Below, in pieces: positions 3,703 to 47,416 of a stretch of 64,000 bases of DNA. Source of the DNA: Gammaproteobacteria bacterium. Its GTDB lineage: Bacteria; Pseudomonadota; Gammaproteobacteria; Eutrophobiales; Eutrophobiaceae. How positions within the stretch are numbered: position 1 is the stretch's first letter; each line of letters starts with the position of its first letter. The stretch covers positions 186,001 through 250,000 of the forward strand of contig JAJFKL010000030.1 of assembly GCA_021773235.1 (NCBI GenBank). The letters run 5' to 3'. The notes beneath the pieces were generated by a model. That model did not search any database. It saw nothing but the letters and a program-made list of their open reading frames with translations, and was not told where the DNA came from. The position numbers and the translations under genes were made by a program.

Positions 3703-4869
3703 ATGCATCAGACAGCTGAAATACTATTATCCATCGGCGGGATAATGTTACTGGGATTGGTAACAGACATGCTTGGCCGACGCACATTCCTGCCTCGCGT
3801 TACCTTGCTGTTATTGTTTGGCATGATCATCGGCCCAAGTCTGCTCAACCTTCTTCCTGAGATCTTCATCTCTCGCTTTGAATTGATCGCGAACATCGCT
3901 CTGATCATGGTGGGTTTTTTAATCGGTGGAAAACTATCCAAAAAGTTATTTAAAAGCTTAGGTAAGGAATTAATCTGGATTTCCTTAGGCGCGGTCATCG
4001 GGACGGTTAGTATTGTCAGTCTTGCATTAATTGTTGCAGGTGTCTCTGCAGAGATGGCGATACTGTTCGGATGTATTGCAACAGCGACGGCACCTGCTGC
4101 AACACTGGATGTTGTTGAAGAGTCGAAAGTAAAGAGCCATTTTTCCAGATTGCTTGTATCAATCGTTGCACTGGATGATGCCTGGGGATTAATTGTATTC
4201 AGTCTCGGTCTGGCAATGATCGGATTAATGACCGGGATAAATGGAATGTTACCGCCTTTGTTATTAGCGCTTAAAGAGATCTTTGGGGCGGTACTGATTG
4301 GTCTAGCTGTGGGAATGCCAGCAGCTTATTTAACCGGTCGTATTCAACAAGGCCAACCAATGCTGTTTGAAGCATTGGGTATTGTCTTTCTTTGTGGGGG
4401 GCTGGCAATCTGGTTCGAAGTGTCATTCTTGATTGCCGCTATTGTTATGGGCATGACAATTGTGAATCTGGCTAGACATCATAAATATCCTTTTCATGCG
4501 ATAGAGGATATTGAGTCGCCGTTTATTATTTTATTTTTCGTGATGGCAGGCGCGTCGCTTGAACTGGATTCATTATCAAGTATTGGTGTGATTGGAACGG
4601 TTTACATTCTTGCACGTATTGCAGGCAAGATTATCGGGGTTAAATTTGCCGGGGAGATTTGTAAGGCAGATAATTCGGTAAAGAACTGGATGGGCCTGGC
4701 CTTGTTGCCCCAAGCCGGCGTTGCCATGGGTATGGCATTGGTTGCATCCAGTCATTTTCCGGAATATCGCCAGTTGTTATTGTCTGTCATTATCAGTACT
4801 ACGATCTTTTTCGAATTGATAGGGCCAGTGATTACGAACAAGATCTTGAGAAAAACGGCTAATAATTAA
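3703..4869 (+). CDS. CPA2-type cation/proton antiporter membrane domain
   Basis: This 388-residue protein is made almost entirely of hydrophobic helices, about 11-12 by eye, with the short loops usual for the Na+/H+ exchanger domain of the KefB/CPA2 group. The segment IVALDDAWGLIVFSLGLA contains the paired Asp residues typical of the ion-binding helix. There is no TrkA-N domain after the membrane part, so it is the short form. It should exchange Na+ or K+ for protons at the inner membrane. No strong Shine-Dalgarno precedes the ATG. Its stop codon overlaps the stop codon of the der remnant on the other strand. Confidence 0.85.
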   Translation: MHQTAEILLSIGGIMLLGLVTDMLGRRTFLPRVTLLLLFGMIIGPSLLNLLPEIFISRFELIANIALIMVGFLIGGKLSKKLFKSLGKELIWISLGAVIGTVSIVSLALIVAGVSAEMAILFGCIATATAPAATLDVVEESKVKSHFSRLLVSIVALDDAWGLIVFSLGLAMIGLMTGINGMLPPLLLALKEIFGAVLIGLAVGMPAAYLTGRIQQGQPMLFEALGIVFLCGGLAIWFEVSFLIAAIVMGMTIVNLARHHKYPFHAIEDIESPFIILFFVMAGASLELDSLSSIGVIGTVYILARIAGKIIGVKFAGEICKADNSVKNWMGLALLPQAGVAMGMALVASSHFPEYRQLLLSVIISTTIFFELIGPVITNKILRKTANN

Positions 4870-30575: not shown

Positions 30576-30617
30576 GTGCTCCCTACGAGACTCGAACTCG
30601 TGTTTTCGCCGTGAGAG
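30576..30617. repeat. Left attachment site attL (42-bp core repeat)
   Basis: This copy starts GTGCTCCCTACGAGACTCGA and ends GCCGTGAGAG, identical to the 3' half of tRNA-Glu at the right end. It is the displaced tRNA 3' fragment left by integration. The match stops at the anticodon-loop region, the usual crossover zone for tRNA-targeting tyrosine integrases. Confidence 0.93.
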
Positions 30618-30786: not shown

Positions 30787-32052
30787 ATGGCACGATTAGC
30801 AAGAGAGTCTAAGCTTGAAACACGAGAGGCGAGAAGTAAGCTGAAATCGTCTCACGAGCCGTATTGGAGGAAGATTGAACCGGGTTTTCATTTAGGTTAT
30901 CGCAAAGGAAAGCGCACAGCAGGAACTTGGATCGCTCGTTATTCACTGGATGGAAAGTATAAGAAAAAAAGTTTAGGTAATGCGGATGACTTCCGCGATG
31001 AAAACGGTGTTGATGTTTTTAAGTTTGCAACGGCACAAGCTGAAGCAATCGTATGGGCAACATCACTTGTTAAAAAGTCGAAAGGGATTCATGAAGGCCC
31101 GTTTACTGTTAGAGATGCCGTTAAGGAATACATGGACTGGTTCGAAGTTCATCGTAAATCGGTCTATCAAACGCAGCGTGCCTTTGATTTTCACATCATT
31201 CCGATGTTTGGTGATAAAGAGGTCTCCGAATTAACCACTCGTCAAATTCGAAAGTGGCATGAGTCGCTAGCTAAAACTCCCGCGCAGATCAGAACCGGTA
31301 AATCCAGCAAAGAAACGAACTATCGAAAGGTGAATGATGTCCGATCGCGTAAGGCAACGGCCAATAGAGTGCTCACGATCTTAAAGTCAGCCTTGAATCA
31401 TGCGTGGCGTGAAGGATTTGTTGAGTCTGATTCAGAGTGGCGCAAATTAAAACCGTTTCGCAATGTCGATAAGGCCAAAATTCAATACTTGAATGAACGG
31501 GAATGTAAGCGACTTGTTAATGCGTGTGCGCCTGATTTCCGGTTATTAGTCCAGGGTGCGCTCTATACCGGTTGCCGCTACGGTGAACTTGCCAATATGA
31601 AGTGTTCGGACTTCAACACGCGAGCAAGCATTATTTCGATAGCCGATTCAAAGAGTGGTAAGGCCAGACATGTCCCGGTAACGAATCAAGGAAAGGAATT
31701 TTTTAAAAGACAGAAAGCGGGGCGTAAAGGTTCTGAGTTTATGTTTAGAAGGGAAGATGGTGAACAATGGGGACAGTCACATCAAATCAGACCTATTGCG
31801 GCTGCAAGTAAGATAGCGAAGATTGATCCTCCCGCCTCGTTTCATGTACTTCGGCATACCTACGGATCGGCCTTGGCAATGAATGGCGTTCCTCTACAGG
31901 TCATAGCAGAAGCATTGGGCCATGCTGATACTCGAATCACGAGTAAGCACTACGCACATCTGATGCCTTCTTATGTGGCAGATACGATAAGGGCGAACCT
32001 GCCAGACTTTGGGAAGTTTGAGCAGGATAATGTGAGGGAAATACAAGTATGA
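30787..32052 (+). CDS. int: Tyrosine-type site-specific integrase
   Basis: This 421-residue protein has a C-terminal tyrosine-recombinase domain with the catalytic set: Arg in ALYTGCRYGELANM, Lys in DSKSGKARHVPV, His-x2-Arg in FHVLRHTYGS, a late His in ALGHADTRIT and the nucleophile Tyr in SKHYAHLM. A central SAM-like core-binding domain and an N-terminal arm-binding region with WIARYSLDGKYKKKSLG come before. It would integrate and excise the element at tRNA-Glu. It lies 170 bases inside attL and overlaps the next gene by ATGA. Confidence 0.95.
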   Translation: MARLARESKLETREARSKLKSSHEPYWRKIEPGFHLGYRKGKRTAGTWIARYSLDGKYKKKSLGNADDFRDENGVDVFKFATAQAEAIVWATSLVKKSKGIHEGPFTVRDAVKEYMDWFEVHRKSVYQTQRAFDFHIIPMFGDKEVSELTTRQIRKWHESLAKTPAQIRTGKSSKETNYRKVNDVRSRKATANRVLTILKSALNHAWREGFVESDSEWRKLKPFRNVDKAKIQYLNERECKRLVNACAPDFRLLVQGALYTGCRYGELANMKCSDFNTRASIISIADSKSGKARHVPVTNQGKEFFKRQKAGRKGSEFMFRREDGEQWGQSHQIRPIAAASKIAKIDPPASFHVLRHTYGSALAMNGVPLQVIAEALGHADTRITSKHYAHLMPSYVADTIRANLPDFGKFEQDNVREIQV

Positions 32053-32633: not shown

Positions 32634-32840
32634 ATGTCACAAGAAAACAATTCTGATGTATTCGATATAAGTACGTTCTGTAAATCAAACAAAATAAGCA
32701 GAGCACTTTTCTACCAACTCCAAAAAGCAGGCAACGGCCCACGAATTATGAAAGTGGGAAGACGTACATTGATCACTCCTGAAGCTGCTGCTGAATGGCG
32801 CAAGAAGATGGAACAACAAAGTTCCCCAGTGGCTGCCTGA
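32634..32840 (+). CDS. AlpA/excisionase-like helix-turn-helix regulator
   Basis: This 68-residue protein has a MerR-type helix-turn-helix: DISTFCKSNKISRALFYQLQ, then GNGPRIMKVGRRTLITPEAAAEW, the pattern of AlpA-like regulators and excisionases. In satellites and P4-like elements such proteins switch on excision and early genes. AGGAG lies upstream, directly after a 7-bp inverted repeat (TACACAT/ATGTGTA, 32599-32620), which could be an operator or mask the ribosome site. Confidence 0.8.
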   Translation: MSQENNSDVFDISTFCKSNKISRALFYQLQKAGNGPRIMKVGRRTLITPEAAAEWRKKMEQQSSPVAA

Positions 32841-32855
32841 TTAAAGTAAGACAGC

Positions 32856-33359
32856 GTGGCTAATCACCCAAGACAAAAAATCAAAGGAAGGAGAGAGTCT
32901 GGAACATTCGTGGCTCTACCTCATGCCTGTATGAATCACGCAAACTTTATAGCACTCAGCCCGTACGCTGTGAAATTTTTAATCGATTTATATGCTAATT
33001 ACAACGGTTCAAACAATGGTGATTTTTGTTGTACTTGGTCGATGATGAAAAAACGAGGATGGAAATCAGAGGCAACACTAAGCAAGGCACGTAAAGAGCT
33101 TTTATATTACGGGTGGATAATTTGTTCACGCCGTGGTGGTAGAAACATTCCTTCTCTCTACGCTGTAACGTTTCAATCAATTGATGAATGTAATGGGAAG
33201 CTGGATTTAAAAGAAACAACAACGGCTCCGGGAAACTGGAAAGAAACCAAAACCATCACATGGAAGGAATCTAAAAATAAATCCTTACTACGCAACGTGG
33301 TGCAACTTACTACACCTCCCGTAGTAACAGAGGAGGATAAGCCATGTTTAGCTATGTAG
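32856..33359 (+). CDS. Winged-helix protein, candidate replication initiator
   Basis: This 167-residue protein has a predicted winged-helix core (IALSPYAVKFLIDLYANYNG, then TLSKARKELLYYGWIICSRR), like N-terminal domains of phage replisome organisers and plasmid initiators. There is no helicase or primase domain. Its last 60 bases run into a set of dyad repeats (TTACTACACCTCCCGTAGTA), so the gene end encodes TTPPVV from the repeat. An initiator placed next to iterons is a familiar arrangement, hence the suggestion; transcriptional control is the alternative. The true C-terminus may vary with repeat number. Confidence 0.6.
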   Translation: MANHPRQKIKGRRESGTFVALPHACMNHANFIALSPYAVKFLIDLYANYNGSNNGDFCCTWSMMKKRGWKSEATLSKARKELLYYGWIICSRRGGRNIPSLYAVTFQSIDECNGKLDLKETTTAPGNWKETKTITWKESKNKSLLRNVVQLTTPPVVTEEDKPCLAM

Positions 33360-33423
33360 TTACTACACCTCCCGTAGTAGTCAGGGCACTTTTAGCACAA
33401 TCGTTACTACGCCTCCCGTATAC
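33285..33423 (+). repeat. Iteron-like dyad repeats (four copies, outer two degenerate)
   Basis: TTACTACACCTCCCGTAGTA occurs perfectly at 33307-33326 and 33360-33379, with weaker copies at 33285-33302 (TTACTACGCAACGTGGTG) and 33404-33423 (TTACTACGCCTCCCGTATAC). Each copy is itself a dyad, TACTAC facing GTAGTA around CACCTCCC. An AT-rich run (TTTATATATATG) follows. Two readings are possible: a replication origin bound by the neighbouring winged-helix protein, or RNA hairpins that show CACCUCC, the anti-Shine-Dalgarno sequence, in the loop next to GAGGAGG at 33330-33336. Confidence 0.7.
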
Positions 33424-33581
33424 CTTTATATATATGCCATGGGGTTGTCTATTACTTCCCGGTACTAGGCAACGCATAGGGGGTAAGGGGGTGGTCTATT
33501 CCCTGGGAACTGAGACCTACCTGACCGATCCCCCTCATTCGTTTATGTTTTTGCAAATAAGAATCCAAGGAATTTCAATAG

Positions 33582-33992
33582 ATGAAACGCGGTCCTAAAT
33601 CAAAATCAGTCGATCTACATATCGTCGAAGGCACTCATAACGCAACAAGACATGGAAATATTGAAAGATCAGGTAGAAATGTCGAAGGCCTCACGCCGAT
33701 CAGGGATATGCCAGATGATGTTGCAGAAATTTGGAATAGAAATGTTGATTTGATTTGGTGGAATACGAAGCTAGAAAGCAGTTTTTTTGATACTTGGTGC
33801 GACATGGAAGCTGATCTTGTTTTGTTTAAGCAAGGTAAAGTAACTCGCTATACATGGACTCCCGCTATGTTTACTCAGTATAGGGTGTTAGCCGCAGAAC
33901 TAGGGATAGGAACCTCAAACAGGAAAGACGCTTTACAAACATCCAGACCATCATCGACGAGTGAACATTTTGATGATGGCGGCTTCGCTTGA
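33582..33992 (+). CDS. terS: Phage terminase small subunit, P27 family
   Basis: This 136-residue protein matches the P27 small-terminase pattern by eye: start KRGPKSKSVDLHIVEGTHNATRHG, the middle PDDVAEIWNRNVDLIWW, and a late LAAELGIGTSNRKDAL in place of the usual LGLTPSSRxRL. TerS selects DNA for packaging. The element has no large subunit, so this TerS probably redirects a helper phage's TerL to the element, the hallmark of PICI-type satellites. A region of about 220 bases before it, with G5TAAG5 and a CCCCC run, has no gene and might hold a cos-type site. Confidence 0.7.
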   Translation: MKRGPKSKSVDLHIVEGTHNATRHGNIERSGRNVEGLTPIRDMPDDVAEIWNRNVDLIWWNTKLESSFFDTWCDMEADLVLFKQGKVTRYTWTPAMFTQYRVLAAELGIGTSNRKDALQTSRPSSTSEHFDDGGFA

Positions 33993-34396: not shown

Positions 34397-36382
34397 ATGT
34401 CATCAGATTTTGATAGTTTCGATCAGTCCCCTTTAGGCGCATTTATTCAATCACCGCTAGGCGCTAGAGGTTTACAGTCAGAATCTATTCAAACTGGCAC
34501 AGTGTTTGTTGGCTCTACAGCATCACGATCAACATCAATACCGTTTAACGGGCTTAGATTTACTGTAGGTGGAAGCTCTCCGAATTATACAATCGACCCA
34601 ATAGATCAAGCGTTTCCAGATGATACGCCTGTTAGACTAACAATTGATGGCGTGGGGGTATTGCCAGCGCCACTAGCAGAAAGCACAACTTATTATGTTG
34701 TTAATTCGGATGATACAAGTTTAGATTTATCAGCAACGGAAGGCGGAAGCGCAATTGAATTAACCAGCACTGGCACAGCGCCAATGATCATCGGATCAGA
34801 CTTTGCGATAGCCAGCAATCTTAGTGTATTAACTAACGACTCAGCAAAATATGATCCTGTAACTGGCGCATGGTCAGCAGCAGACGGAGGCGGCAATTTT
34901 AACGCAACAATTAGCCAACTAATCGCTATCGGTGGCATTGTCTACGCGAGGGAAGGCGGCAACGTTAGATATTATGATCGCTGGTCAAATGACTGGATAC
35001 TAATGTCACCCGGCTTTACTGTCAGAGATATTATTGATTACAACGGCACATTGTTGGCAGTTGGTGTTTCAGTTGGCGTAGGTAAAATTAAAACATTCAA
35101 CGCGACAACTAATACATGGAGTGCCTTTGTAAGCGTTCCACCAATATCACCCGACACAGACAATTATGATTTTTATGATGCCGCCTATGATTCTGTAAAC
35201 GATGTGTTGTGGATTTGCGGGGAAAGGCCACCCACGACAGCAGTAATTTTTAAATATAAGTCAGGAAACTGGTCAAGAACAACCTACGGAGCATCAATAG
35301 ACAGATTTACTAAGATAGGATTTCTTGGTTCAACTGCTTATGTCATACATAGGCGTGAGAGTGCTTCAAGAAGATGGTTAAGAAAGTGGGACGGGATTGA
35401 CGCGTCTGGCGCACTTCCAGTCATGACAGACGATGCTGCTAATCCCGGTGGGCTTGTATTAAACAATCAATTTGCTTTTGATATATTCAATCTTAATAAT
35501 CGGCTTTTTGTTTGCGGAAGTTTTGACGAATGGCGGGTACGAGAATCTGGTGTAACGACAGATCATGTTGTTGGGAATATTGTAGAAATAACAGGCGATC
35601 TAACATTCAACGGCATTAATGGTGGCCTTGCTAATTCCGTTACAACGATGTCAGAGTCGAACGGTAAATTGATATTATTATCATCACAAACAATGAAGGC
35701 CGCAGGCGGTACTAAACCGGGCGCGTCAGGGTTAGCGCAACTAAACGGATCAGCATTAGGTTTATTTCAATCAAGCTGTGGCGCAGACAGGGTTACTGCT
35801 TTTGTTGATTCGGGCTTAACAGAAACGACAAGCCTAAATTCAAGCATAGCGATAACAGTCCCGGCAGATGGTTCAGCGCACCATGACGACGACACTATAA
35901 CATTTACTGGAACGGCAACAGATGATCTAGATGGTGATATAAGTGCATCAATCGCGTGGAGTTCAGATATAGATGGCTCAATAAGTACGGGCGCATCTGT
36001 TAGCACAAGCGCGCTATCAGTAAACGATCACACCATCACAGCAAGCATCACTAATTCAAGAACATTAACATCAACCGATACTATTGATATATCAGTCGAA
36101 GTATTAACAATAACTTCTGTTTCTCCAACTAGCGGATCAGAATCAGGCGGCACATCTATAACGATAACAGGTAAACAGTTCACAGCTTCAACAACAATTA
36201 CTTTTGATGGTAACTCAGCAACAAGTGTTGTATTCGTTAACTCAACAACGATCACTTGTGTAACTCCAGCAGGGACAGGTACAGTTGATATAGTTGTAAC
36301 GGATGGGGCGGAATCAGACACGCTTACAAACGGATTTACTTATTCGAGTGATGAACCTCCACCACCTCCACCACCGATATAA
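34397..36382 (+). CDS. Large fibre- or adhesin-like protein with SPLGA start, propeller, Ig-like and IPT/TIG domains
   Basis: This 661-residue protein begins with a repeated motif (QSPLGAFIQSPLGARGL), a form I associate with phage structural or host-contact proteins. Residues about 130-460 contain kelch-like blades (YDPVTGAWSAADG, FNATTNTWSAFVSVP) and probably form a beta-propeller. An Ig-like domain (FTGTATDDLDGDISASIAW) and an IPT/TIG domain (ITSVSPTSGSESGGTSITIT) follow, then a poly-proline end. There is no signal peptide. In this setting a virion-attached receptor-binding protein is the best guess; it would let a satellite alter tail specificity. That is inference. Confidence 0.65.
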   Translation: MSSDFDSFDQSPLGAFIQSPLGARGLQSESIQTGTVFVGSTASRSTSIPFNGLRFTVGGSSPNYTIDPIDQAFPDDTPVRLTIDGVGVLPAPLAESTTYYVVNSDDTSLDLSATEGGSAIELTSTGTAPMIIGSDFAIASNLSVLTNDSAKYDPVTGAWSAADGGGNFNATISQLIAIGGIVYAREGGNVRYYDRWSNDWILMSPGFTVRDIIDYNGTLLAVGVSVGVGKIKTFNATTNTWSAFVSVPPISPDTDNYDFYDAAYDSVNDVLWICGERPPTTAVIFKYKSGNWSRTTYGASIDRFTKIGFLGSTAYVIHRRESASRRWLRKWDGIDASGALPVMTDDAANPGGLVLNNQFAFDIFNLNNRLFVCGSFDEWRVRESGVTTDHVVGNIVEITGDLTFNGINGGLANSVTTMSESNGKLILLSSQTMKAAGGTKPGASGLAQLNGSALGLFQSSCGADRVTAFVDSGLTETTSLNSSIAITVPADGSAHHDDDTITFTGTATDDLDGDISASIAWSSDIDGSISTGASVSTSALSVNDHTITASITNSRTLTSTDTIDISVEVLTITSVSPTSGSESGGTSITITGKQFTASTTITFDGNSATSVVFVNSTTITCVTPAGTGTVDIVVTDGAESDTLTNGFTYSSDEPPPPPPPI

Positions 36383-36771: not shown

Positions 36772-37239
36772 TTATTCTATTTTTAATGGGTTTAGTGCTC
36801 CTCCTTTCGTGATTGACACTATAAATGGGCCATTATGGTTATCGGCGTATTTTTTCATTTTGTCGATTGTTTTAACTGCAATATCAGCCATATCTTTTCC
36901 TGATAAGTTACCAGACGTATATCTGAAAACTTTTGCTTTATATTTTTTAATAGCTTGGATCTCAATTTGCCTATGTCGAATACGTTTATCTTTTGTAATT
37001 GCTAAGCGATTATTTCTACCAACATATTCAATCCATTCTTCATCAAGCGCACCACTATGCAATGCATCATGGACAGTTTCGACTTTTGCACCAGCTTTTC
37101 GTAAAGCATCAGGCACAGCATGCTTACCAATTGCTTCATCAATAAAAAAAATGTGCTCTTTGGCTTTTTTAAGCTGCTTTGAGCTCGCAGCGGATCGCTT
37201 CCTCGATCTCTTCCTCTTGACGTTCATAATCTGATGCAA
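36772..37239 (-). CDS. PIN-like toxin (VapC45 type)
   Basis: This 155-residue protein has a PIN-like core with acidic residues in the right order: FIDEAIG, ALDEEWIEYVG and AITKDKRIRHRQ. It resembles VapC45-type toxins, which are ribonucleases paired with a DUF433 antitoxin. It overlaps the end of the antitoxin gene by up to 71 bases; a start at the second Met (37227) is also possible, and the basic first 25 residues may be dispensable. No transcription partner lies downstream. Confidence 0.7.
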   Translation of the reverse strand: MHQIMNVKRKRSRKRSAASSKQLKKAKEHIFFIDEAIGKHAVPDALRKAGAKVETVHDALHSGALDEEWIEYVGRNNRLAITKDKRIRHRQIEIQAIKKYKAKVFRYTSGNLSGKDMADIAVKTIDKMKKYADNHNGPFIVSITKGGALNPLKIE

Positions 37240-37870
37240 GGTCTTTTACTGAATCACCAGCTTTGTAGCGCTCTGCAATTATTTCGGTGGGGATACCTGA
37301 CCCAGCAATAACAGGTCTGCCAAATGCTAATCCTGGCTGGATAACAATAATCTTCGGTGATTCCGCAATTTCCGTATGAGTAAAAGGAAAAAGTTTTTGT
37401 GGGAGCCCTTCTGAGTCCCATTCAATACGTTTAAGCGCAGCATCTAATAGTTCACGCATACCTTGTTGCCCATCTTTACTAATATTTATTAATTGCCCCA
37501 AATGTTCAATGAATAGACTTGACCCGTCTGTTTCGAACTCATGTTTAAGTAAAGGATGTGGCTTTCTAAATGTTTTATGTAAATAATCAATTGCAGAACG
37601 AACCTCTTGCAATTTAACTTTGTATTCTTTTGTTATTGTTCCAAGAATATGAACTTCCACAAGATTATAAAATGAAAGTAAAGTTGGAGTCCCCATTGAA
37701 GCAGGAATTATTACTGGTTGATATGTGTCTTTTCCAGTTACCCAATATCGGATAGTAGATTCAGCAATATTCAAATAATGGGCAACTTCAGGTATTGAAT
37801 AGGCTTGGGAGTCCCTGAAATCAGAAATCTTCTTCTTTGCACTCATACAGAATTTTGAACCCTCAATCAT
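37169..37870 (-). CDS. DUF433-type antitoxin (VapB45-like)
   Basis: This 233-residue protein has an N-terminal MerR-like helix-turn-helix (AYSIPEVAHYLNIAESTIRYW) and a C-terminal DUF433 motif (GRPVIAGSGIPTEIIAERYKAGDSVKDLASDY). This two-domain layout with a PIN-like gene directly after it is the VapB45/VapC45 arrangement. It should bind its own promoter and neutralise the toxin. The pair lies on the minus strand in the middle of an otherwise plus-strand part of the element, a typical cargo module. Confidence 0.75.
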   Translation of the reverse strand: MIEGSKFCMSAKKKISDFRDSQAYSIPEVAHYLNIAESTIRYWVTGKDTYQPVIIPASMGTPTLLSFYNLVEVHILGTITKEYKVKLQEVRSAIDYLHKTFRKPHPLLKHEFETDGSSLFIEHLGQLINISKDGQQGMRELLDAALKRIEWDSEGLPQKLFPFTHTEIAESPKIIVIQPGLAFGRPVIAGSGIPTEIIAERYKAGDSVKDLASDYERQEEEIEEAIRCELKAA

Positions 37871-42859: not shown

Positions 42860-44164
42860 CTATCTGTCGAAGAACAATTGTTCGATAAAACTAGTAGAAA
42901 GATTATATATATTTAATATTTCTTGTTTACAGTTAAAAATTAAATTATCTAATTCGATTAATAAATCAGGAAAGTACTTATTAACAATAACCTTAATAAT
43001 AATAAACAATACTAAATACTTCAATACAAGCAGGACATAATGTAAAGAGGTAACTAATTTTGTTGGATTTGTAGCTGTACTTTGTGGCTCAAATTCGGAA
43101 TTTAGCATATACCGACACCAAATATCCTCAGCATGTCCAATAGATAACATATCACTATGATTGGTATCTTTGAGACGTATATTAATCAAATTGTAAGCAT
43201 GATTATCATTTAAAAAGAAAGCGCCTGAACTTCCAGCTCCTAGGATAGTATGACTAGCAATAACAGGAAGAGAGTCACCATCCCCACACACATTTAATAC
43301 TCTTTTTATAGTAACACCATGATTTTTTTCAGGTTGTGTGAAATTTTTCCATTTGTATTTAATAGGAAGTATTGAACCATTGAGAATTACCGCATCTATT
43401 TCTATTCGATTATTAACCTTTTCTGCAAGGTCTAGCGCTTTAGCTAAAACAATGCTTCCAAAACTATGCGCTATTATAGACAACTTTTTTTTTGGATTTT
43501 TTTGTTGAGCGGAATTTATTCTGTTTAATAATTCTTCGGAAAGGTTTCTTCTTGCCCTAAAATTTATTGCAAAATTGATAATGTCGAAAAAACCATATCT
43601 GAAAATGGAAGATCCAATATTTTTTTTGAGCAATACATCATGAGCTTCTTCAGCCCAAGTTGCATGCGTTCTTATGCCATGAGTAAGAACAGCATGGACA
43701 GGTTCAGGAATTTTATTATATTCTATTCTGCCTAATATTAACTGGTGGTCTTCTGGTATTTCTAAATCGAATAAATCATCGACACGACATATATCAGAAA
43801 TATCAGAATCAATATCAAGTAAGGATGAAATATAAATTAGTTGAGCTATGGACCTTATGTCATCATAGTCTTGTTCTCCAAATAAACTAATAATAATCCC
43901 ATTGAACTCATTACTGATAAAAACCCTTTTTTCAAGTTTCTGTTTAATTATTGCTATAAAATAAGAATTATCAGACTGTTTTTTTAGATATTGCGCCATG
44001 TGATTAGCATCAAATGCGCCTCTAGATACTATTGTTTTTTTTGAAGCGTCATCAATATTTTCTACAATGTAGTTACATTCCTTAACGTTCTCATAAAGAA
44101 TGGCGCTCACAAGATCATCGTCAACAGAATGATCAATCCATACATAAATATTATTTTCAGGCAT
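42860..44164 (-). CDS. Alpha/beta-hydrolase with C-terminal membrane anchor (operon partner of the zincin gene)
   Basis: This 434-residue protein has an N-terminal region of about 150 residues that I cannot assign, then an alpha/beta-hydrolase core: oxyanion-type THGIRTHATW (from 161), nucleophile elbow IAHSFGS with Ser near 234, a likely acid in CGDGDSLP (about 293-300) and candidate His at 337 or 344. A membrane helix follows near 370-395 (YVLLVLKYLVLFIIIKVIV). It should act as a lipase, esterase or similar at the membrane. It starts 4 bases after the zincin gene, so they form a unit. The region is markedly AT-rich against the backbone. Confidence 0.65.
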   Translation of the reverse strand: MPENNIYVWIDHSVDDDLVSAILYENVKECNYIVENIDDASKKTIVSRGAFDANHMAQYLKKQSDNSYFIAIIKQKLEKRVFISNEFNGIIISLFGEQDYDDIRSIAQLIYISSLLDIDSDISDICRVDDLFDLEIPEDHQLILGRIEYNKIPEPVHAVLTHGIRTHATWAEEAHDVLLKKNIGSSIFRYGFFDIINFAINFRARRNLSEELLNRINSAQQKNPKKKLSIIAHSFGSIVLAKALDLAEKVNNRIEIDAVILNGSILPIKYKWKNFTQPEKNHGVTIKRVLNVCGDGDSLPVIASHTILGAGSSGAFFLNDNHAYNLINIRLKDTNHSDMLSIGHAEDIWCRYMLNSEFEPQSTATNPTKLVTSLHYVLLVLKYLVLFIIIKVIVNKYFPDLLIELDNLIFNCKQEILNIYNLSTSFIEQLFFDR

Positions 44165-44168
44165 GCCT

Positions 44169-46439
44169 TTATGAATCAGATCCAGGCGTTCTAATAAAGA
44201 AATTACTTCTGTTTTTTAATGACATAATTAATGCTGTTGAACTCTGAAGGTTTTTTTGGTCGAGTCTTTTCAATATTATTTTTTTAACAAGCAAAAAAGG
44301 ATTATCTATTTTATTTGAAATCATATTACCATCTAAAATATCTGAAACATTAGACTCAATATCATCGTATTCTTTATTTATGTACTCTCTAAATTCTTCA
44401 TTTTTGTATTCATTGAAAATATTCATTAAATTAATATAAGCAGTAAAAAGTTGTATATGTAATGTTTTTTCTTCATTAACCGTTTCCAACTTTTCACCGT
44501 TTATCACATTTCCCGTAAGTTTATTAACTAAATCAATATGATTAGACCATAAGTCCAAGCAAAAAAGTGTATATTCATCAGGGTTTTCATCGACCATTAA
44601 TTCACACAGCTTATTTTCATACTGTATAAAGTAAACAAATAAACTCCTAAAATAATAGTCAGTGAAGCTCGAATGGAAAATAGGTAAATATTCCCATGAT
44701 TGCCAAATATGCAATATATAACGTTCAATATCTTTATTATAAAAATGATAAAAGTCATACCAATGTGCAAATATTTCATACACTTGATCTATATACTCTT
44801 CATCATCAATTAGGCTTGAATCACGCATAGGCCACCATTCACGTTTAATACTTACAAGTTCTTCCTCCCTATCAAATCCAATATCAAGCCTCAAAAAAAT
44901 AGCGTGTGATATTTCATGAGTTAATGTTAGCCAATTACCTCTACTATCACATGGATCGTATAGAGCTACTAAGGGCAAGTTTATTACCTCTCCAAAAGTA
45001 GCTTTAAAACCTGATGAATCATTAAATGTGGGAAAACCTTTAGCTATCTTTTCCCCAGAATAGCTATCTGTAAAATCTGACCAGGTAGAAAATATAAAAT
45101 TAATAAAGTCTTCAACAGCTAAAAGGTTTCCAAAAATACCATCACTAAATGGTAAAGGTAACTCGTGGGAAGAGAACAAAGCATTGAATCCACTATCAAT
45201 TCTTTGCGCAAGACCTCTTTCAGCAGATTCAGCCGACTGCATTAAAACACTTTCAGATACATGCATATCTATTTGTTCATTTTTACGAATGAAATCACAA
45301 TAGTTATTAATTTCTTCTTCTAGACAATGTAGGAAATTACCAATACTTCTAGATAAAGGATAATATGATGGATTGCATGTATATGAAGTAATGGTATTAG
45401 AGATATTTTTAATTCTATTTGCTAAACGAGGATTTTTATCCTGTAATAACCTTGGTATTTCTAATCGATAATTATCATGATTAACTTTATAAATTAAAGG
45501 TTTGTGTGTACTCTCGCTAAATTTATCTTGTAAATGTGTTCGAGTTGAAAGAGCTGCGCGATGCTCTTGTTCCCACTTCTTTCTAAAATTAAGTATCTTT
45601 TCAATTAACAAATTTGTATCTATATTATTAGTAGTATTAACAACTATGTCTTCTTCCCCTAACAATGCTGAACATTGGTAATATTCTTCACTAAAATAAG
45701 CTGGGATATAATTTTCAAAACCAGGTGGGCAATTAACTGAGATAGCTGCTGAAGATTCGCCTTCAATACCCGTAACAGAAACACTTTTTTTGTTGTATTT
45801 TATATTATTATAAGAGATACAAGGAATGGATCTTGTATTCATAAATACTGGGAATTTACTAAATTCTTTATCAACAGCGGGGAAACAGTCATCTGCTATA
45901 AGCTCACGACACTTCAAGCAAAGTATCCAGATGTCTTCAACTTTATTGCTTTTAACAATCCCATATAGTTCTGACCTTCCATATCCACCAAATAATGATA
46001 GTTCGATATTCTTATTACGAGCTATTTCGTTAATTTTTTCTAACAATACTGAATACGCAGTTAATGAGGATGCAACACCGGAGTCTTCAGAATAAAACCA
46101 TTTATCTAACTCTAAAAATAGAAAACCTATAACAGGAGCATCACTTAACCAAGGCGTAATATCAGGTGAACTATATGCGGGGGTAGCAAAATTATAGGCT
46201 ATGAGAGGTTTAACTGTCCTAATGCCTTCAAAAGAATAATAAACTAAATCATCTTCAAAACTTTCTATATTAAATATAGCTACAACGTCATATTGACCAA
46301 ATGCTTTGAATAGATTTGTACATCCTTTATCTTTTAATTTCTGTACTACATGCTCTTCAGAACCAGCATCAATATGAAAAAAAAGACCTGCTAGAAATGT
46401 TTCCCCAACTCTAAGTGAAACTTCATCTTCCATAGTCAT
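44169..46439 (-). CDS. Large protein with tandem sensor-like N-terminus and HEXXH zincin domain
   Basis: I do not recognise this 756-residue protein as a whole. Residues about 14-85 (FFHIDAGSEEHVVQKLKDKG, then FGQYDVVAIFNIES) resemble the ferredoxin-like RAM fold of Lrp/AsnC sensors, and a second similar unit may follow (about 100-180). The C-terminal half has THEISHAIF at 507-515, an HEXXH zinc motif, with Glu 555 in YEIFAHWYDF as a likely third ligand, the gluzincin spacing. No signal peptide or membrane helix is present. Operon with a membrane-anchored hydrolase suggests a sense-cleave-act pathway. The function is inferred. Confidence 0.6.
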   Translation of the reverse strand: MTMEDEVSLRVGETFLAGLFFHIDAGSEEHVVQKLKDKGCTNLFKAFGQYDVVAIFNIESFEDDLVYYSFEGIRTVKPLIAYNFATPAYSSPDITPWLSDAPVIGFLFLELDKWFYSEDSGVASSLTAYSVLLEKINEIARNKNIELSLFGGYGRSELYGIVKSNKVEDIWILCLKCRELIADDCFPAVDKEFSKFPVFMNTRSIPCISYNNIKYNKKSVSVTGIEGESSAAISVNCPPGFENYIPAYFSEEYYQCSALLGEEDIVVNTTNNIDTNLLIEKILNFRKKWEQEHRAALSTRTHLQDKFSESTHKPLIYKVNHDNYRLEIPRLLQDKNPRLANRIKNISNTITSYTCNPSYYPLSRSIGNFLHCLEEEINNYCDFIRKNEQIDMHVSESVLMQSAESAERGLAQRIDSGFNALFSSHELPLPFSDGIFGNLLAVEDFINFIFSTWSDFTDSYSGEKIAKGFPTFNDSSGFKATFGEVINLPLVALYDPCDSRGNWLTLTHEISHAIFLRLDIGFDREEELVSIKREWWPMRDSSLIDDEEYIDQVYEIFAHWYDFYHFYNKDIERYILHIWQSWEYLPIFHSSFTDYYFRSLFVYFIQYENKLCELMVDENPDEYTLFCLDLWSNHIDLVNKLTGNVINGEKLETVNEEKTLHIQLFTAYINLMNIFNEYKNEEFREYINKEYDDIESNVSDILDGNMISNKIDNPFLLVKKIILKRLDQKNLQSSTALIMSLKNRSNFFIRTPGSDS

Positions 46440-47342: not shown

Positions 47343-47384
47343 GTGCTCCCTACGAGACTCGAACTCGTGTTTTCGCCGTGAGAG
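47343..47384. repeat. Right attachment site attR (42-bp core repeat within tRNA-Glu)
   Basis: Identical to the left copy over 42 bases. It makes up the acceptor, T-arm and anticodon 3' part of tRNA-Glu, so the tRNA stays intact after integration, its 3' part being supplied by the element. Confidence 0.93.
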
Positions 47385-47416
47385 GGCGACGTCCTGGGCC
47401 ACTAGACGAAGGGAGC
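47344..47416 (-). tRNA. tRNA-Glu (anticodon CTC)
   Basis: The minus strand begins GCTCCCTTCGTCTAGTGGCC and folds into a standard cloverleaf: 7-bp acceptor (GCTCCCT/AGGGAGC), anticodon loop CTCTCAC with CTC in the middle, and T-loop GTTCGAG. The CCA end is not encoded. It reads GAG codons. It is the integration target of the island, with the element lying on its 3' side. Confidence 0.93.

Follow-up and report, generated by a model that had tools for sequence, protein, structure and literature searches.

Four inverted repeats lie at the 3' end of a short winged-helix gene in the genome of a gammaproteobacterium (GCA_021773235.1, contig JAJFKL010000030.1), and the locus raises the question of what these repeats are for. 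The initial annotation of this DNA left two readings side by side: origin iterons read by the winged-helix protein, or RNA hairpins whose loops pair with ribosome sites and control translation. Comparison of the 64,000-nucleotide stretch analyzed here, referred to as the window, with related loci indicates that the four repeats very probably belong to a replication origin and serve as binding sites for its initiator, the winged-helix protein encoded by the gene that they overlap.

The repeats and the integrated element around them

The 20-bp sequence TTACTACACCTCCCGTAGTA is present in two exact copies (iterons 2 and 3 in Table 1); no other site in the window comes within three mismatches of it, and the number of exact copies expected in shuffled windows is 0. 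The first and last copies are degraded and read TTACTACGCAACGTGGTGCA and TTACTACGCCTCCCGTATAC, respectively. Iteron 1 is taken as real despite its poor sequence because its 22-bp offset from iteron 2 is the spacing found in many relatives. The window spacings of 22, 53, and 44 bp correspond to about two, five, and four helical turns. Two perfect and two degraded copies at the end of the winged-helix gene are what the initial annotation had described, and they occupy exactly 33285–33423. Its placement of a CACCTCC loop in each copy holds for the two perfect copies and not for the degraded ones, which carry GCAACGT (first) and GCCTCCC (last); the first C of the heptamer is, moreover, the last base of the left arm. 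The GAGGAGG that it saw past the second copy is present at 33330–33336, three rather than four bases after the copy at 33307.

The automated dyad score of the window itself is low (3.2) because the scanned stretch started within copy 2; the exact repeats stand independently of this score. An 84-aa open reading frame running through copies 3 and 4 (33344–33598) was taken as spurious, since it has no profile match and stop codons break it in some relatives, L021 and L034 among them.

Table 1. Positions of the repeats, neighboring genes, and attachment sites in the window
Feature	Position	Strand	Basis or remark
attL, left attachment repeat	30576–30617		42-bp exact repeat shared with 47343–47384
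Tyrosine integrase gene	30787–32052	+	Phage_integrase PF00589, E 6e-28
Small AlpA/excisionase-like DNA-binding protein gene	32634–32840	+	Open reading frame; assigned by position and appearance
Winged-helix replication initiator gene (putative), 167 aa	32856–33359	+	Recognition helix from residue 72; PHROG relatives; AlphaFold2 model
Iteron 1, degraded	33285–33304	+	Dyad center 33295; within putative initiator gene; 22 bp before iteron 2, a common family spacing
Iteron 2, perfect dyad TACTAC-ACCTCCC-GTAGTA	33307–33326	+	Center 33317; within putative initiator gene
Iteron 3, perfect dyad	33360–33379	+	Center 33370; just 3' of putative initiator gene
Conserved spacer GTCAGG...TTTT, iteron 3 to 4	33380–33393	+	T-run kept across relatives
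Iteron 4, degraded right arm	33404–33423	+	Center 33414; family dyad position 7–10 bp upstream of end element
AT-rich end element CCTTTATATATATGCCA, probable DNA-unwinding element	33423–33439	+	Motif conservation and low stability
attR, right attachment repeat	47343–47384		In tRNA-Glu gene 47343–47416 (−)

The array belongs to a 16.8-kb insertion bounded by a 42-bp exact direct repeat, the right copy of which lies in a tRNA-Glu gene. Its genes follow the order tyrosine integrase, small DNA-binding protein, winged-helix protein, with the repeats after them. The small protein has no Pfam or PHROG match; its equivalent in a second element of the same genome, on contig C14, matches the phrog_66 excisionase (E 1e-4). 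Beyond the repeats, the product of 33582–33992 resembles a terminase small subunit by eye, with no profile match, and no primase profile was found among the element proteins scanned. The element is likely a satellite. Eleven other genomes of the same genus do not have the winged-helix gene, as expected for a mobile element.

The C14 element (L009, 4283–7660, − strand) carries the same array, there with loops GCCTCCT, ACCTCCT, and GTCTCCC, and the protein of the adjacent gene is 75% identical to the winged-helix protein of the window. A terminase small subunit gene (Terminase_2, E 1e-32) lies beside the module, and the integrase is unrelated to that of the window element. Two elements with a shared putative initiator–origin module and near-identical iteron arms coexist in one genome, and the near-equality of their arms makes cross-talk between them possible.

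The window element also carries cargo. Directly after the putative replication region lies an unusual gene, 34397–36382 (+), for a 661-aa protein with a C-terminal IPT/TIG domain and a proline-rich tail. A DUF433/HTH protein and a PIN-like (PIN_10, DUF5615) protein encoded at 36772–37870 (−) probably form a toxin–antitoxin pair inside the element. Two adjacent cargo genes at 42860–46439 (−) are candidates for an undescribed defense or effector pair. The product of one has an alpha/beta-hydrolase (DUF676-like) domain; that of the other is 756 aa long, has a possible HExxH-type motif (HEISH), and matches nothing in Pfam or PADLOC.

Arrangement of dyads and AT-rich motif among relatives

A whole-genome search found the winged-helix protein in 20 further genomes, and a profile made from a four-sequence alignment found 57 GTDB loci and 29 IMG/VR loci. 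Single-protein queries of the IMG/VR and GTDB contigs returned nothing, and a 17-sequence alignment held no stretch conserved enough to serve as a search query. After removal of near-duplicates, 91 distinct loci from Gamma- and Betaproteobacteria, IMG/VR contigs, and one phage record were analyzed. Among the 70 loci with enough flanking sequence, where genes were named by eye from the sequences, an integrase-like gene is present in 51, an AlpA-like gene in 25, and capsid, portal, or terminase genes in about seven.

Nearly all of the 91 relatives have three to four dyads at fixed distances, the last of them centered 8–9 bp before a conserved AT-rich motif, CCTTTATAKATNTACCA (33423–33439 in the window), which is usually the least stable DNA nearby. 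A motif model trained on a subset of the same loci finds this motif in 84 of the 91 relatives and in 8 of 175 control stretches; none is detectable in the other seven relatives. Dyad scores above 10 are reached in 58 of the 91 loci and in only three upstream control stretches. The dyad finder was blind to the AT-rich motif and the motif scorer was blind to the dyads. In 47 of the 55 loci that have both, a dyad center falls 7–10 bp before the motif, where chance would place no more than 0.04 per locus; likewise in 47 of the 55, a dyad lies about 52 or 43 bp before it. The common center-to-motif layouts are 117/95/52/8, 126/94/51/8, and 139/116/42/8, while that of the window, 127/105/52/8, is identical to the layout of one relative, L044. 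The family spacings of 22, 32, 43–44, and 53–54 bp are all close to whole helical turns.

Arm sequences vary widely among relatives while their palindromy is kept: counted from the dyad center, positions 3–7 pair in 75–85% of cases and positions 1–2 in 30–34%. Across 42 non-redundant loci, the T-run between iterons 3 and 4 has T frequencies of 71–88% at positions −32 to −30 relative to the end element. In 65 of 84 loci, the AT-rich motif ranks within the least stable 2% of stretches in the 520 bp of that locus; the averaged stability profile is anchored on the motif and is therefore partly circular. An exact-pattern scan of IMG/VR for the motif returned nine contigs, none with a dyad array or winged-helix gene adjoining, so the AT-rich motif alone is not diagnostic. 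Relatives that have the initiator and lack the repeats had been named by the initial annotation as evidence that would count against it; the relatives do have the repeats, and in them the dyad survives whereas the loop does not.

The winged-helix protein and the repeat arms

The AlphaFold2 model of the protein (pLDDT 84) is a winged helix in which residues 72–85 constitute the recognition helix. With overall identity controlled, residues 71–76 are the best of 114 six-residue segments for half-site similarity (partial r 0.207, 0/1000 permutations), and the second best, residues 88–93, is the wing. Sharing of residues 72–73 raises half-site identity by 0.222 (null sd 0.025, 0/2000 permutations, protein pairs 25–50% identical), more than any other of the 118 adjacent residue pairs. 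The sequences are related and therefore not independent, and the permutations leave some kinship in place, an effect limited by the restriction to pairs 25–50% identical. The matching is also seen class by class. Residue class SEA goes with half-site ACTAC in five of five cases, the window included, SRD with ACACG (6/6), SND with CCG (6/6), SKA with GGTAC (5/5), and SPE with TACGGA (3/3). This is strong comparative evidence that the winged-helix protein binds the dyad repeats.

Profile and structure searches point weakly to replication proteins. Among 56 members compared with PHROG, 27 match DnaD-like helicase loaders and 11 match O-like replication initiation proteins (best 1e-6), all weakly. 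The 17 members compared with Pfam give only weak generic helix-turn-helix matches (MarR, GntR, HTH_36) and no match to the O-protein or RepA_N models. The best PDB matches by profile are RepA_N plasmid initiator chains (E 0.005–0.05, weak), and the best Foldseek match is 5kbj, a RepA Rep–iteron complex (E 0.017, also weak).

Function of the array and its known counterparts

Because the layout is conserved and residues 72–73 predict the arm sequence, the repeats are best read as origin iterons recognized by the winged-helix protein. The initial annotation's first reading is strongly supported: across the family the dyads keep their place and geometry, and where the recognition helix differs, the dyad sequence differs with it. 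The repeats, the constancy of their geometry, the conservation of the AT-rich motif, and the agreement of recognition helix with arms are read directly from sequence, and from them we infer the function of array and protein: it is highly probable that 33285–33439 is the replication origin of the 16.8-kb integrative, satellite-like element and that the winged-helix protein is its initiator. An initiator dimer would sit on each of the four dyad iterons, with one recognition helix per half-site (ACTAC in the window). Since the iterons are phased on the DNA helix, the bound dimers would assemble into one nucleoprotein complex. This complex may melt the adjoining CCTTTATATATATGCCA, where the replicative helicase would then be loaded, allowing the element to replicate autonomously after excision.

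The same protein and sites could instead serve transcription, with the repeats as operators through which the winged-helix protein only regulates its own operon or downstream genes. Residue–arm matching demonstrates binding specificity rather than function, and many winged-helix regulators look similar in Pfam, where the protein has its weak MarR, GntR, and HTH_36 matches. However, an operator role does not sit easily with four helically phased sites at the gene's 3' end beside an unstable AT-rich motif, nor with profile matches to replication proteins, and it is improbable. Autoregulation could coexist with origin function, as it accompanies many iteron systems. Markedly less probable still are RNA hairpins that display CACCTCC and pair with Shine-Dalgarno sites such as GAGGAGG to control translation. 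The heptamer CACCTCC corresponds to the conserved 3'-terminal sequence of bacterial 16S rRNA (no 16S gene is present in this incomplete assembly), and the predicted fold pairs the CCUCC of copy 2 with GAGGAGG. Yet dyads with CCTCC-type loops occur only in this genome's two elements, and the relative L019 keeps TACTAC/GTAGTA arms around the loops GGAATAT, AGAATCT, and AATTCCC. Arm mismatches are as often A-C (64) as G-T (51), so there is no G-U preference or RNA-type wobble tolerance; the RNA folds no better than shuffles (z = +0.58), and CACCTCC is not enriched in the window (5 observed against 3.0 expected). With loop variation, mismatch types, RNA fold, and chance counts against it, the initial annotation's second reading was rejected. 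Judged from the loops of the relatives, the likeness of CACCTCC to the anti-Shine-Dalgarno sequence is a coincidence of this one genome.

The least probable alternative, to which we give almost no weight, is that the repeat is kept as coding sequence (TTPPVV) for the protein, or that the copies are tandem transcription terminators. Copy 2 does encode TTPPVV at the protein C terminus, but copies 3 and 4 lie outside the gene in the window. Across the family, the array contains the stop codon in 55 loci, lies downstream of it in 21, and lies upstream of it in 7, whereas distances within the array and to the AT-rich motif are fixed. The distance from stop codon to motif is free to vary (sd 70, range −177 to 230), and coding position therefore does not matter. 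Terminators are disfavored by the absence of a U-run directly after the dyads.

Read as a replication origin, the array has several counterparts. Iteron plasmids of the R6K, RK2, and P1 type have initiator sites helically phased at about 22 bp beside a DNA-unwinding element; the dyads described here differ in lying at the mixed family spacings given above rather than as uniform direct repeats, and the initiator belongs to another family. The lambda initiator gene contains four iterons, inverted repeats about 19 bp long, and an AT-rich stretch adjoins them (PMC7466680). The O/ori-lambda system of lambdoid and Stx phages shares with this module a winged-helix initiator, four inverted-repeat iterons in the initiator gene, and an adjoining AT-rich stretch. 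Copies 1 and 2 are inside 32856–33359 and copies 3 and 4 just after it, with a similar arrangement in relatives, and CCTTTATATATATGCCA follows immediately, 8–9 bp past the last dyad center. By this analogy, the array would work like ori-lambda, with dyad iterons that overlap the gene of the initiator and adjoin AT-rich DNA. In contrast to lambda O, the protein is only about 150 aa and has no Pfam-level match; the iterons are at the gene's 3' end and beyond rather than mid-gene, the 17-bp AT-rich motif is conserved, and the module resides in integrated elements and is almost absent from phage records.

The nearest parallel among satellites is RepA of PLE, a Vibrio cholerae phage satellite, whose winged-helix N domain acts on semi-palindromic iterons (PMC7145576, PMC8263062). 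With PLE RepA and the RepA_N plasmid initiators, the protein would share a winged helix on semi-palindromic iterons and the lack of a primase or helicase domain. It differs in having no Pfam RepA_N match, its dyads are shorter and without a poly-A center, and a tyrosine integrase and AlpA-type genes are found here where a serine recombinase is found there. In gene order, the elements described here resemble Gram-negative PICIs, cf-PICIs, and PICMIs, in which an integrase, AlpA, and a replication gene are followed immediately by the origin and then by a terminase small subunit (PMC6092414, PMC10803314, PMC10111431). In the window element, the integrase is matched by profile, whereas the AlpA-like and terminase-like genes are putative; some relatives carry capsid, portal, and terminase genes too. 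PICIs, however, use a primase-type Rep (pri-rep) and have, 3' of rep, an AT-rich region with an iteron set on each side (PMC6092414), and cf-PICIs and PICMIs also replicate with a primase-type Rep. The window element has a primase-less, 167-aa winged-helix protein and one iteron set on one side, and it therefore falls outside the PICIs on Rep type and iteron arrangement.

No paper describing this replicon family was found in the open-access literature, and the family appears not to have been described previously. Its putative origin layout and protein-to-DNA matching rule recur in about 80 related elements. On balance, we favor the view that these elements are an undescribed satellite-type replicon family of Proteobacteria with a universal origin design of four phased dyads and a conserved 17-bp melting motif, in which initiator and iterons co-evolve by a two-residue code that sets the half-site and gives each element a private origin. 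If this code is true, private origins would avoid cross-talk with competing elements. A hypothetical protein of dozens of integrated elements would become a likely replication initiator with a defined origin, and some 60 initiator–iteron pairs make up a natural series in which shifts of initiator specificity can be studied.

Dyads spaced in this fixed way ahead of CCTTTATAKATNTACCA form an origin signature with which more such elements can be located; phage and plasmid databases contain almost none of them. The gene is present in one plasmid and in one phage record, the 16-kb Pseudomonas vB_Pae_U1 (PP003913.1, L013), where it is annotated as replication protein O. In sequence, this record resembles an integrated element, not a typical phage, and at 4221–4826 a gene annotated as DNA primase starts within its iteron array. 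In another relative (contig G011:C15), two putative initiator–origin modules, L015 and L017, lie less than 1 kb apart on opposite strands.
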